Assembly: GCA_947588955.1 (NCBI GenBank)
Contig: CANPYX010000022.1
Span: 1-39,283, forward strand
Direction: 5' to 3'
Length of the DNA stretch: 39,283 nt
Source: an uncultured Oscillospiraceae bacterium
GTDB taxonomy: Bacteria > Bacillota > Clostridia > Oscillospirales > Oscillospiraceae
Made by a program: the position numbers and the translations under genes. Under the pieces are notes generated by a model. That model was not told the origin of the DNA, ran no database searches, and saw only the letters and a program-made list of their open reading frames with translations. Positions 23,003-34,058 of the stretch are shown here, piece by piece. The stretch's first letter is position 1. Each line of letters opens with the position of its first letter.

Positions 23003-24496
23003 TCATGCTATTTCCAGTTCAGCGACCTGTATGAGGATGTCCTCAAGCTCCTGGGGCATGTCATCGAGAATGCCTATGTCACGGTAGTGGATGACGATCT
23101 CTTGCGGAGCACTGCGGGAATACTTCTTGGCCCGTTCTCCGACCTCGATGCGCTTGATGAAGGTGTGGAGAAGCTCCGGGGTCAGCTCGTTTATTTCTGT
23201 GTATTTATGTGCGTTCTCCAGGAAGCGGTCAAAGTTGGTGGTGGAGTCTTTCAGTTCCTGCAGATGTTTGGCCAAATCTGGAAGAGTGGTCTTGATGCCC
23301 TCTTGCTCTGCGATGTACTCAGCGGATAGGATCCTGTACTGCTCATCGGGTATCCTGCCAAGGACGTTGTCCTCATAGAGACGCTTGAATAACGACATTA
23401 GCTCTGACTGGCGTTTTGTCATCGCGGCTATCTGTTTCTCAAGACCACGGATTTCCTTTTGGGCCTCCTTCGTTCGCTTCATGCCGATGTATTCCGCGAA
23501 CCTGCGTTCGTTCTGCCTTGCGAAATGAGTGATCCGGCGGAGGTCGTCAAGGACGATAGCGTTGAGGTCAGCTTCAAGAATGTAATGGGTCGAACAGACG
23601 TCCTTGCCCTTCTTCTTGTAGGTCGAACACATGAAGCAGTTTTTGGAGGAGTCCATTGTGTGGGAACGGTGGAGTACCATAGTCCCGCCGCAGTCTTTGC
23701 AATAGACGAGGCCGGAGAACATATCCTGTTCATCGAAATTTGTGCGCCGGCGCTTGTGCTTGCGGATGTCCTGCACGATCTCCCATGTCTGTCTGTCGAT
23801 GAGCGGTTCATGCGTTCCTTCGAAGCGGAGCTGCTCTGACTCAGGGCGTTTGATCTTTTTCTTGTTCTTGTAGGAGATCGTGGTCGTCTTCATATTGACT
23901 GTCACGCCCAGGTACACCTCATCCTCCAGTATTTTACTCACCGTAGCTGACGACCAGGCATATGGCTTTGAAATATCGAGGGTTGAGAGCTGTACGCCAT
24001 ATTTTGCGTAATAGTGGTATGCCGGTGAAGGGATCTCCTCTTGCCGAAGCTGGTTGGCTATCCTCGTCGGGCCGAGGCCGGAGGCGCAGAGGGCGAAGAT
24101 GCGTTTGACCACAGGCGCCGTTTCAGGGTCAGGAACAAGGTGTCGCTTTGGGTCATCCGGGTCCTTCATGTAACCATAATTCGGACGTGATGCGATCCTC
24201 GCGCCTGTCTCGGCCTTGATTTTCACCGATGAACGGCCTTTTTGGCTTGTGTCCTTGGCATACAGCTCGTTGATGATATTCCTAAACGGCGTGAAATCAT
24301 TGGAGGATTCCACGAGACTGTCCACCCCGTCGTTCACCGCTATGAACCGCACCCCGTAGCTGGGGAAGACCAATTCGGTGTACTGGCCAACCTGAAGGTA
24401 CTCCCTGCCGAGGCGGGACAGGTCTTTGACGATCAGCGTTCCTACCTGCTCCGATTCTATGAGCTCCATGACCTCCTGCCAGCCGGGGCGGTTGAA
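23003..24496 (-). pseudogene. outer large serine recombinase, C-terminal part (split gene)
   Basis: Reading leftward, the frame opens with FNRPGWQEVMELIESEQVG at the inner element's border and continues for about 496 residues. It holds the end of the resolvase domain (KDLSRLGREYLQVGQY), the recombinase domain (RPNYGYMKDP), a zinc ribbon (CKDCGG with CSTYKKKG), a long coiled coil, and the C-terminal tail. The catalytic N-terminal 65 residues are missing here; they lie at 34059-34253 on the far side of the inner element. A TGA stands just beyond the border inside the inner element. The part from ATG 24469 could be translated but has no nucleophile serine, so it should be inactive until the insertion is removed. 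Confidence 0.92.
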
Positions 24497-24506
24497 TGCT
24501 CATGTG
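24495..24506. repeat. left attachment site of the inner element
   Basis: The core AA (24495-24496) is followed by the left terminal repeat TGCTCATGTG (24497-24506). The bases before the core (GGGGCGGTTG) are recombinase codons for N-R-P. The right end is the mirror image at 34047-34056. Confidence 0.85.
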
Positions 24507-24630
24507 CGGTAAAGTAACACAATGATTTGATAGGCAACCGCCCCTATTCCGTAATTTGAAAGACCAGCTATAAAAAGTAGTATCCATATGGTAAAATATA
24601 AACAAAAAAACATCAAGGTGGTAAACGCTT

Positions 24631-25236
24631 ATGGAATTTCATGAAAAGCTGCAAGAACTTAGAAAACAAAAAAATTTAACACAAGAAGAACTTTCTGAAA
24701 TACTGTTTGTTTCACGAACTGCCATTTCAAAATGGGAATCAGGGCGTGGCTATCCTAGCATTGACTCCTTAAAAGCTATTGCAGAATTTTTCGGGGTAAC
24801 AATAGATGAACTGTTATCTAATAGGGAGCTGATTTGTCTTGCAGAAAAAGATAATCACCAAAAAACACAGCATATGCGTGACTTAGTGTTTGGTTTGATT
24901 GATTGTTCTGTTGGAATGTTGTTTTTTATTCCTCTTTTCGGACAGAAAGAGGGTGATATAATTCGTCAAGTGTCTTTGCTATCGTTACAGGAAACGCCCT
25001 TGTTCATAAAAGCTATATACCTTGCAATTATTTTATTAACGGTTGCTTGTGGCATTGCTACATTAGCTTTGCAAAATTGTTCCTGCCGTATTTGGATAAA
25101 AATAAAGACTGTTTTATCTATAGTGTTGACTACCGTTAGCGTTGTTATCTTTATTGCAAGCCTTGAACCTTATGCCGCCTTTTTTATATTCGTTCTGCTG
25201 ATTATCAAGGGGGCTTTGCTGCTAAAACGCCCATGA
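24631..25236 (+). CDS. XRE-family regulator with membrane-spanning C-terminal half
   Basis: Residues 5-60 are a typical HTH-XRE domain (ELRKQKNLTQEELSEILFVSRTAISKWESGRGYPSIDSLKAIAEFFGVTIDELL). After a short linker come four hydrophobic helices (about 85-105, 123-147, 155-175 and 178-197). It is thus a membrane-bound DNA-binding protein of 201 residues. Such proteins may sense membrane or lipid-linked signals. It is AT-rich, unlike the transfer genes to its right, as is the next gene, so the pair looks like a separately acquired cargo module. An AAGGTGG site precedes the ATG; a TTGAAA and TAGTAT pair about 50-75 bp upstream may be its promoter. Confidence 0.8.
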   Translation: MEFHEKLQELRKQKNLTQEELSEILFVSRTAISKWESGRGYPSIDSLKAIAEFFGVTIDELLSNRELICLAEKDNHQKTQHMRDLVFGLIDCSVGMLFFIPLFGQKEGDIIRQVSLLSLQETPLFIKAIYLAIILLTVACGIATLALQNCSCRIWIKIKTVLSIVLTTVSVVIFIASLEPYAAFFIFVLLIIKGALLLKRP

Positions 25237-25345
25237 CACGGAGCGTATCATAGATGTGACGGTCAAATTCTTTCATTTTTTGTACTCCAAAGCTAAAGTG
25301 TGATTAGGCAAAAGCCAAATACATGAAAGACAAAGGAGCAAAAAA

Positions 25346-32351: not shown

Positions 32352-33974
32352 ATGTTAAGACAGACCACCCAGCAACTTATTACCGCCCTTTATCCGAGAT
32401 TATCCCATGAGGACGAGCTTTCCGGGGAATCCAATTCCATAAGCAACCAGAAGCGGATTCTTGAAGCCTACGCCAAACAGAACGGCTTTACCAACCTCAA
32501 ATGGTACACGGACGACGGATTCTCCGGGGCAAATTTCCAAAGACCCGGCTTCCAGTCCATGCTTGCCGACATTGAAGCGGGGCTTGTGGGAACGGTCATT
32601 GTAAAGGATATGTCACGGTTAGGGCGAAACTACTTACAAGTGGGAATGTACACGGAAATGATTTTCCCACAGAAAAACGTCCGTTTTATTGCAATCAATG
32701 ACGGCGTTGACAGCGCACAGGGCGAGAATGACTTTGCCCCCTTGCGTAACATTTTTAACGAATGGCTGGTGAGAGATACGAGCAAGAAAATCAGAGCCGT
32801 GAAGCGGTCAAAAGGCATGAGCGGGAAACCCGTCACAAGCAAGCCTGTTTATGGCTACCTCATGGACGAGGACGAAAATTTCATCATTGACGAGGAAGCC
32901 GCCCCCGTGGTGAAGCAGATTTACAGCCTTTGCCTTGCCGGGAACGGACCGACCAAGATAGCCCGTATGCTCACGGAACAGCAAATCCCCACGCCGGGAA
33001 CGCTGGAATACCGCCGGACAGGAAGCACACGCCGCTACCACCCCGGCTATGAGTGCAGGTGGGCGGCGAACACCGTGGTGCATATCCTTGAAAACCGGGA
33101 ATACACGGGCTGCCTTGTGAACTTCAAGACCACCACCCAATCCTACAAATGCAGCAAGATTATCTACAACAGCGAGGATAAACAGGCAATCTTCGAGAAC
33201 CACCACGAGCAGATAATCGACAAGGACACATGGGAGCGTGTACAGGAGCTACGCAAGCAGCGCAAACGCCCCAACCGCTATGATGAAGTGGGCTTGTTCT
33301 CCGGCATACTCTTTTGTGCGGATTGCGGCAGCGTCATGTACCAGCAGAGGTATCAAACGGACAAGCGGAAACAGGACTGCTATATATGCGGCAGCTACAA
33401 GAAGCGCACGGCAGACTGTACGGCGCACTTTATCCGCACCGACCTGTTGACCGCCGGAGTGACCGAGAACCTACGGAAAGTCACCCAGTACGCCGCCAAG
33501 CACGAAGCCCGGTTCATGAAGCTGTTGACCGAGCAGACCGAGGACGGGAGCAAACGCCGGAACGCCGCCAAGAAGAAAGAGCTGGAAGCGGCAGAAAAAC
33601 GGATTGCGGAACTCTCCGCTATCTTCAAGCGACTGTATGAGGACAGCGTAGCCGGACGCATTTCAGACGAGCGTTTCACGGAATTGTCGGCAGACTATGA
33701 AGCCGAGCAAAAGGAACTGAAAGAACGTGCCGCCGTTCTGCAGGGCGAGCTTTCAAGGACGCTGGAAGCCACGGCGAACGCCGAGAAGTTTATGAAAGTA
33801 GTCCGCAAGTACACCAGCTTTGAGGAACTCACCCCTACCCTGTTACGGGAGTTTGTGGAGAAAATCGTAATCCACGAATCGGAAGCCCTTGACGGGAAAC
33901 GCCGGGGGAAGCTCCGCAGACAGGAAATCGAAATCTATTACTCTTTTGTCGGCAAGGTAGAGTTGCCCGACTAA
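32352..33974 (+). CDS. large serine recombinase (TnpX-like) of the inner element
   Basis: This 540-residue enzyme should excise and insert the inner element. The catalytic serine is Ser18 in YPRLSHEDE, with ESNSISNQK after it. The rest of the resolvase domain includes [14 protein letters not shown] and [17 protein letters not shown]. The recombinase domain ([16 protein letters not shown]), a zinc ribbon (CADCGS with [11 protein letters not shown]), a coiled coil (about 400-460) and the C-terminal domain follow. It is homologous over its length to the outer recombinase it interrupts, but clearly diverged. It ends 82 bp from the right end of its element, the normal place for such a gene. Confidence 0.95.
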
Positions 33975-33984
33975 AGCCCGACCC

Positions 33985-34003
33985 GTCCGGCAGTCAGCCG
34001 GAC
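33985..34003 (+). terminator. hairpin after the inner recombinase
   Basis: GTCCGGC (33985-33991) pairs with GCCGGAC (33997-34003) around 5 nt; a T run follows only 14 bases later, so termination may be weak. Confidence 0.5.
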
Positions 34004-34046
34004 AGGGAACGGCAAAATTTTTTACACTTCTTTTACTTCTTTATCT

Positions 34047-34058
34047 CACATGAGCAAA
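34047..34058. repeat. right attachment site of the inner element
   Basis: The right terminal repeat CACATGAGCA (34047-34056) is followed by the core AA (34057-34058), then GTTGGTGCC, which is the complement of recombinase codons G-T-N. It is the exact inverse of the left end at 24497-24506. Confidence 0.85.

Follow-up and report, generated by a model that had tools for sequence, protein, structure and literature searches.

The window analysed here is the whole stretch of 39,283 nucleotides of contig CANPYX010000022.1 (assembly GCA_947588955.1), from an uncultured gut bacterium of the Oscillospiraceae. It carries a mobile element of 9,560 bp (the inner element) within the large serine recombinase (LSR) gene of a second mobile element (the outer element). 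It is likely that the inner element belongs to the integrative and mobilizable elements (IMEs) that target maff2 and is inserted at a conserved motif in the LSR gene of another IME, that this motif is the main site of a family of integrative and conjugative elements (ICEs), here called ICE-B, and that the outer element would stay immobile until the inner one leaves precisely.

Junctions and reading frame of the split gene

Read directly, the left junction consists of ...GGCGGTTG, then AA (24495-24496) and then TGCTCATGTG (24497-24506), and the right junction of CACATGAGCA (34047-34056), AA (34057-34058) and GTTGGTGCC (to 34067). The inner element proper occupies 24497-34056, with perfect 10-bp terminal inverted repeats and the AA duplicated. 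The repeat exceeds the perfect 10 bp, as 17 of the first 20 bases of the termini are identical when read inward from the core. An earlier note on this DNA, made from the letters alone, had given the same length, repeats and 2-bp core, all borne out by the direct reading; its span of 24495-34058 has exact junctions but includes both core copies. A repeat finder run on two separate 241-bp segments reported no repeat, as expected for ends that lie 9.5 kb apart.

The outer LSR gene is on the minus strand and is split directly after DDGYTGTN, to the base where the earlier note had placed the break. Its N part (34253-34059, 65 codons) reads MASQEK...FIYDDGYTGTN, and its C part (24496-23003, 497 codons) begins with FNRPGWQEVMELIE... 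and encodes FNRPGWQEV... At both junctions the core TT provides bases 1-2 of a Phe codon; therefore, the loss of one AA together with the inner element would keep the outer frame. The earlier claim that the frame is restored in this way agrees with both the geometry of the Phe codon and the uninterrupted homologues described below.

The serine of the R-L-S motif is the catalytic residue of serine recombinases. The split separates the N-terminal piece bearing this serine from the remaining LSR, so the outer element should be immobile and the split LSR is presumably inactive. If the inner element still excises, as seems plausible, the outer LSR would recover. The previous statement that the insertion inactivates the mobility of the outer element holds for the loss of the serine-bearing part, but it is conditional: two outer-type LSR pieces, 77% identical, end at contig ends of the same genome, and these could be complete and act in trans.

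Uninterrupted homologues of the outer LSR

Sixty related genomes were searched with the C part of the outer LSR, 47 of which gave a match, and the flanks were compared separately with the loci (numbered with L hereafter). Six places match both flanks. In them the left BLAST match extends to 24496 and the right one starts from 34057, with an overlap of exactly 2 bp, which is the single AA of the empty sites. The outer LSR reads through the join in eight of ten loci (L139, L102, L127, L140, L137, L126, L138 and L112) with GTNF, GTNL or GTTF and no residue gained or lost, the comparison that the earlier note had proposed as a test of its reading. In the other two, L103 and L116, the LSR is broken at the identical AA by a different element.

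An assembly chimera would be conceivable, given that the draft has 58 contigs and that several of them stop within LSR genes. However, a single contig contains both junctions, at least about 5 kb away from either end, the two flanks and the duplicated AA agree with the uninterrupted homologues, and the inner LSR is present in the genome as a single copy at 100%. We find a chimera scarcely credible.

The inner element and its relatives

Ten open reading frames (ORFs) of the inner element were scanned against protein families. None of them belonged to the VirB4, VirD4 or type IV secretion system (T4SS) families, nor was any ribosomal-protection tetracycline gene found among them. The element has its own recombinase, as the earlier note had read, which is an intact LSR of 540 aa, and a relaxase, and no T4SS genes, which is the combination that defines an IME. 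Judging by its genes and by the sites of its relatives, it is an IME of the maff2-targeting kind.

A pattern-based scan over 84,980 genomes, one for each species, yielded 410 relatives of the inner LSR, and the counts below cover the best 80 of these 410. The identical right end is present in 77 of the 80, 74-77 bp past the end of the LSR match, and is followed by AA in 77/77; L037, L091 and L092 stop too early for an end to be visible. The left end was found in 50 relatives, with AA directly before it in 50/50. Both results answer a second check proposed beforehand, on whether the inner ends lie elsewhere in relatives, in favour of the ends read in the window. Furthermore, locus L015 holds a near-identical inner element at an unrelated, non-maff2 site (9,560 bp aligned, 47 mismatches, 0 gaps), and L016 holds one in maff2 (about 99.4% over 9.4 kb).

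Regarding their sites, 59 of the 77 relatives with a visible end are in maff2 and 18 are elsewhere (the script had flagged 61 right flanks as maff2, and L071 and L090 were reassigned to the latter group by eye). Among the 59, maff2 is also found on the left in 35, the left flank is another one in 5, and the left end was not found in 19. None of the 77 occupies the LSR motif of the window site, and routine targeting of LSR genes by the inner element was rejected on this count. Of 394 genomes of the order, none but the window's own gave the pattern of the right junction, and its three matches in 397 genomes of a maff2-rich family were all due to chance, with no LSR reading frame. Viral contigs gave one further junction case, where a second maff2-type IME abuts a remnant of the LSR motif (L200).

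Some side observations were also made on these relatives. Five maff2-type IMEs (L034, L035, L044, L059 and L069) have maff2 on the right and an unrelated left flank, as if recombination had joined ends from two copies or a rearrangement had affected the site. In L023, the cargo on the left includes a peptidase-like ORF, identified by eye.

Intervening elements such as fdxN and sigK-skin split a gene in frame and carry their own serine recombinase. The earlier note had likened the inner element to a reversible intervening element and proposed a hierarchy in which the inner recombinase controls the outer one. In the programmed form of this reading, the inner element would be kept in the outer LSR gene as a mobility switch. 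The in-frame insertion, the intact recombinase and the frame that excision would restore are consistent with it. Nevertheless, any precise insertion by an LSR can be expected to allow recovery in frame, the position is not shared by the relatives with an end (0/77), the junction pattern occurs in one of the 394 genomes of the order, the outer homologues are uninterrupted, and near-identical inner elements sit at other sites in L015 and L016. Moreover, the inner LSR scores 95.6 bits on the NCBIfam XisF model, whose cut-off is 375, and neither a conserved position nor a programme was found. A switch of this kind is very improbable, and control as an evolved hierarchy is not supported; it would be a by-product of the insertion. 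The window holds a rare insertion, although the frame would be restored if it excised precisely.

An ICE family inserted mainly at the LSR motif

The element at the identical AA in L116/L144 has its own LSR, 41% identical to the inner LSR, and the ends of its family, ICE-B, lie at this AA in two genomes of the window's genus. The earlier note was right that the insertion in an LSR gene is real, but missed that the same AA is the main target of a conjugative family. The ICE-B LSR was traced by protein search and not by site, in sets of 291, 70, 18 and 397 genomes, viral contigs, plasmids and phages, collections in which the same organism might appear twice; in the phage collection no ICE-B LSR was found at 1e-100. 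The family has 27 members with LSRs at least 66% identical. This count omits L144, which is the seed, the two cases L145 and L188, found by their junction, and L186, which is truncated (97% over residues 1-199 alone).

A recognisable end is present in 25 of the 27 members (the exceptions are L185 and L262), and 19 of these 25 lie in an LSR gene exactly between DDG-x-[ST]-G-x-x and F. Sites were assigned by this motif, allowing at most two substitutions, and the open frame leading up to the junction is just 33 codons long in L253 and 17 in L260. The other six ends lie outside the LSR junction (L152, L184, L247, L251, L254 and L256). When the seed is counted there are 20 split LSRs, and their N-parts form 16 clusters at 90% identity, hence these insertions are not one inherited event. 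Given about 20 LSR candidates in 2.6 Mb, an AA picked at random would have an estimated chance of roughly one in ten thousand or less of lying at such a junction. The AA site in LSR genes is not a random insertion target. Regarding viral contigs, the junction pattern of ICE-B gave 13 matches, and LSR N-parts were found just in L187 (the same place as L182), L188 and L195 (the same place as L183).

An annotated case is that of Monoglobus pectinilyticus (NZ_OY725736.1), where an ICE-B of about 28.8 kb lies between two pieces annotated as 'recombinase family protein' (WP_320690755.1 and WP_320690756.1) and carries genes for VirB4, PrgI, VirB6, VirD4, Maff2, a topoisomerase, a relaxase, TnpW and a 558-aa LSR. 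The T4SS and coupling protein are thus found in M. pectinilyticus, and homologues of them in the genomes G540, G813 and G812 and in S. variabile. By this predicted gene content, ICE-B is an integrative conjugative element with its own T4SS; the inner element of the window has no T4SS or coupling protein families and so is not a member. Both ends were fetched in M. pectinilyticus, G540, G813 and G812, and in all four the C part of the split LSR is found at the far end with the same start residue, although that of G812 has a break of its own. Five of the 19 LSRs split by ICE-B belong to the same kind as the inner LSR (L153, L182, L246, L258 and L259).

In the LSR gene of ICE-B itself the target motif reads DDGFSGVSFEREG (L231:675-2351 and four other ICE-B LSR genes). 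Special protection of this gene against self-insertion was considered and rejected, since Val stands at that position in 10/49 and a residue other than Pro occurs in 10/49 non-redundant LSRs, some of them ICE-B's own. It is possible that DDGFSGVSFEREG weakens the self-site, but this is a hint only.

Origin of the insertion

In general, an LSR pairs the arms of attP and attB around the core and then exchanges strands. In the case proposed here, the inner DUF4368-type LSR would join the circular form to its target across the dinucleotide AA. With no detectable maff2 in this genome, the element lies instead at the conserved LSR motif, which is the main attachment site of the separate ICE-B family, and the outer element should not be able to move by itself before the inner one departs precisely. 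The Maff2 profile gave no match in the window's genome; when the search was rerun with 20 other genomes as a positive control, most of them with elsewhere-sited members, it found maff2 or pieces of it in 17 of the 20. A review of IMEs states that sites other than the preferred one are used especially when the preferred one is absent (PMC5704250).

Several points weigh against this account. The 18 elsewhere-sited members are held by 17 genomes, of which just three have no maff2 match. The absence of maff2 from the window's genome is itself uncertain, as the draft is 96% complete. Furthermore, a site profile built from the family's secondary sites plus maff2 rates the window site as average, with 55% of 11,629 AA sites scoring equal or better, so the inner LSR may not have chosen it. 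On the other hand, two of the ten known secondary sites, left out in turn, are also average (26% and 38%), which keeps the inner LSR as a possible agent. A resemblance of the LSR site to the usual half-site of the IME family (consensus near NNNNCAGGG) was also considered and rejected by the profile comparison.

Alternatively, an ICE-B-type LSR, present at that time, could have used its own attB, which lies in the outer LSR gene, to integrate the circular IME. Such integration in trans is conceivable because the AA core is common to both families and their ends are similar in sequence: 14 of 20 bases agree between the IME right end and the ICE-B ends, a value reached by 2 of 78,526 20-mers of the window, the end itself included. 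With the ICE-B profile, the window site is within the best 2 of the 4,680 AA sites of the window, the best being the motif in the inner LSR gene itself, but this profile is partly circular, given that 19/25 of its sites are LSR codons. When the profile is built from the six non-LSR sites alone, the window site is within the best 192 of the 4,680. The ICE-B ends at this AA in the same genus and the second maff2-type IME abutting a motif remnant (L200) also point in this direction. Nevertheless, no ICE-B LSR was found in the window's genome, where the best matches do not exceed 43%, and a single LSR and two families with secondary sites require no action in trans. Integration in trans is possible, although we regard it as unlikely.

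Two mechanisms are retained, namely the inner LSR acting at a secondary site and an ICE-B-type LSR integrating the IME in trans, and the former presumably made the insertion in the window. A broader and improbable version of the latter would have ICE-B specialised on a conserved motif in the catalytic domain of its rivals' LSRs, immobilising IMEs that invade ICEs, among other elements, with the IME of the window placed in trans and the layers released in a fixed order. If true, the LSR motif would be an attachment site carried by many LSR-bearing elements and useless to the cell, and every layer would become mobile again only once its inner layer leaves.

Nested elements and a second LSR site

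The two families also meet in deeper nests. In G540, a genome assembled as one contig (G540:C1:80000-158000; L225, L226, L218 and L219), an ICE contains an IME, which contains an ICE-B, which contains two further LSR-bearing insertions. The maff2 of the ICE (145303-145455 and 82282-82380) is split by the maff2-type IME, the LSR gene of the IME (136034-136219 and 82464-83894) is split by the ICE-B, and two gaps interrupt the virD4 of the ICE-B, each of which contains an LSR gene. The coordinates of the IMG/VR contig 2926471356_000005 give an IME that contains an ICE-B, which contains an IME. These nests indicate that maff2-type IMEs invade ICEs and that ICE-B invades maff2-type IMEs.

Moreover, a third LSR family has the end AGTCAAyCTTrCATAAAG placed against the junction between N and E (or N and D) of another conserved LSR motif. 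This junction was seen in four genomes from LSR-centred loci, a biased set, including the window's own genome (G000:C32, L133, near base 1350); the loci of the family are L133, L128/L149, L129/L148, L120/L143, L267 and L268. A protein search for its LSR in 199 genomes and viral contigs gave six members, the own genome included, three at the LSR junction and three elsewhere, and the LSR was not found in the plasmids searched.

Comparison with known systems

Among the closest known systems is the IME_Rho_tet family (Microb Genom 2026, PMC12904643). As far as its description goes, both have a relaxase, MobC, a serine recombinase at the 3' end and terminal inverted repeats, the 3' boundary lies 81-90 bp past the LSR stop there and 82 bp here (33974 to 34056), and maff2 is the commonest site (116/256 there and 59/77 with an end here). 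The inner element differs in having XRE and PAP2 genes and no tetracycline-resistance gene, and in sitting in an LSR gene. The likeness is one of anatomy and site, and the element is filed as related to IME_Rho_tet and not as a member because the tetracycline gene is lacking.

IMEs in maff2, snf2 and traG of ICEs of the Tn5252 superfamily are known (PMC5704250, PMC5357655). As in those passages, an element with a serine recombinase breaks a conserved gene of another element and leaves a very short direct repeat; the targets described there are genes of the conjugation module, whereas here it is a recombinase gene and one of the families using it is an ICE. Excision when the host element needs the gene has been put forward as a hypothesis for conjugation genes (PMC5357655). 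Tn6104, Tn6105 and Tn6106 in Tn6103 of C. difficile are likewise mobilizable LSR elements nested in a larger one, and Tn6104 has a 2-bp direct repeat and excises (PMC3158075). They differ in lying in ORFs 1743 and 1776 of a conjugative element, which the relevant passages do not describe as recombinase genes. The clade of DUF4368 or TndX-like LSRs is described as multi-targeting (PMC10083194). The inner, outer and ICE-B LSRs all have DUF4368 and the inner family has several targets, in line with that clade, but within it ICE-B shows one dominant target class, the LSR genes.

No account of LSR genes as an insertion target was recognised in the literature searched, with subscription journals, supplements and figures outside its scope, which is weak evidence. 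Mobile elements are already known to nest in one another's conjugation genes, whereas no conjugative family that mainly targets the integrase genes of other elements has, as far as searched, been described. ICE-B is a case of a narrow attachment site evolved within an LSR clade known for loose targeting. As the target of ICE-B travels with its competitors, it would provide a simple reason for the deep nests in gut Clostridia, and the question of which element moves first becomes a testable order of excision. Furthermore, short genes annotated as 'recombinase family protein' may mark insertion sites and not decay.

Features of the window, host genome and neighbourhood

Table 1. Features of the inner and outer elements, in window coordinates
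Feature	Position	Strand	Remark
Outer LSR gene, C part, 497 codons	23003..24496	-	starts FNRPG, includes the left AA
Left AA core copy	24495..24496	.	also before the left end in 50/50 relatives having one
Inner element (IME), 9,560 bp	24497..34056	.	ends borne out by the copies at other sites in L015 and L016
Left terminal inverted repeat TGCTCATGTG	24497..24506	.	imperfect continuation to about 20 bp
XRE-type regulator	24631..25236	+	Pfam HTH_3
PAP2-family phosphatase (cargo)	25346..26038	+	Pfam PAP2
Sigma-70 region 4 protein	26152..26595	+	family scan
NikA/MobC-like mobilization protein	27287..27688	+	family scan
Relaxase	27651..29306	+	Pfam Relaxase
DUF5720 protein	29332..29853	+	family scan
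Cys_rich_VLP protein	29858..30244	+	family scan
Replisome organiser, N-terminal domain	30358..31122	+	family scan
DnaC/IstB-like ATPase	31164..32033	+	family scan
Inner LSR, 540 aa, DUF4368	32352..33974	+	82 bp from stop codon to right end
Right terminal inverted repeat CACATGAGCA	34047..34056	.	read directly
Right AA core copy	34057..34058	.	read directly; 2-bp overlap in homologues
Outer LSR gene, N part, 65 codons	34059..34253	-	ends DDGYTGTN
Outer element relaxase	34617..35966	-	Pfam Relaxase
Outer element NikA/MobC	35929..36477	-	family scan
Outer element AAA_25 ATPase	36446..37519	-	family scan

The outer element also looks like an IME because a relaxase, MobC, an AAA_25 ATPase and an LSR are present. 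Its right end was not found, as the contig runs no further than 39283. In the own genome, six contigs (C12, C24, C32, C39, C52 and C55) start or end within LSR genes, which indicates that the assembly was broken by LSR repeats.

A GC-rich, palindrome-like stretch (22679-22900) adjoins the outer element, with similar copies in L137, L138, L139 and L129, and is possibly a small dispersed repeat of the genus. Upstream of the outer element, positions 18305-21558 encode an enzyme of the EPSP-synthase family, a POTRA (FtsQ-type) protein and FtsZ (Pfam), a cluster for cell wall and division.

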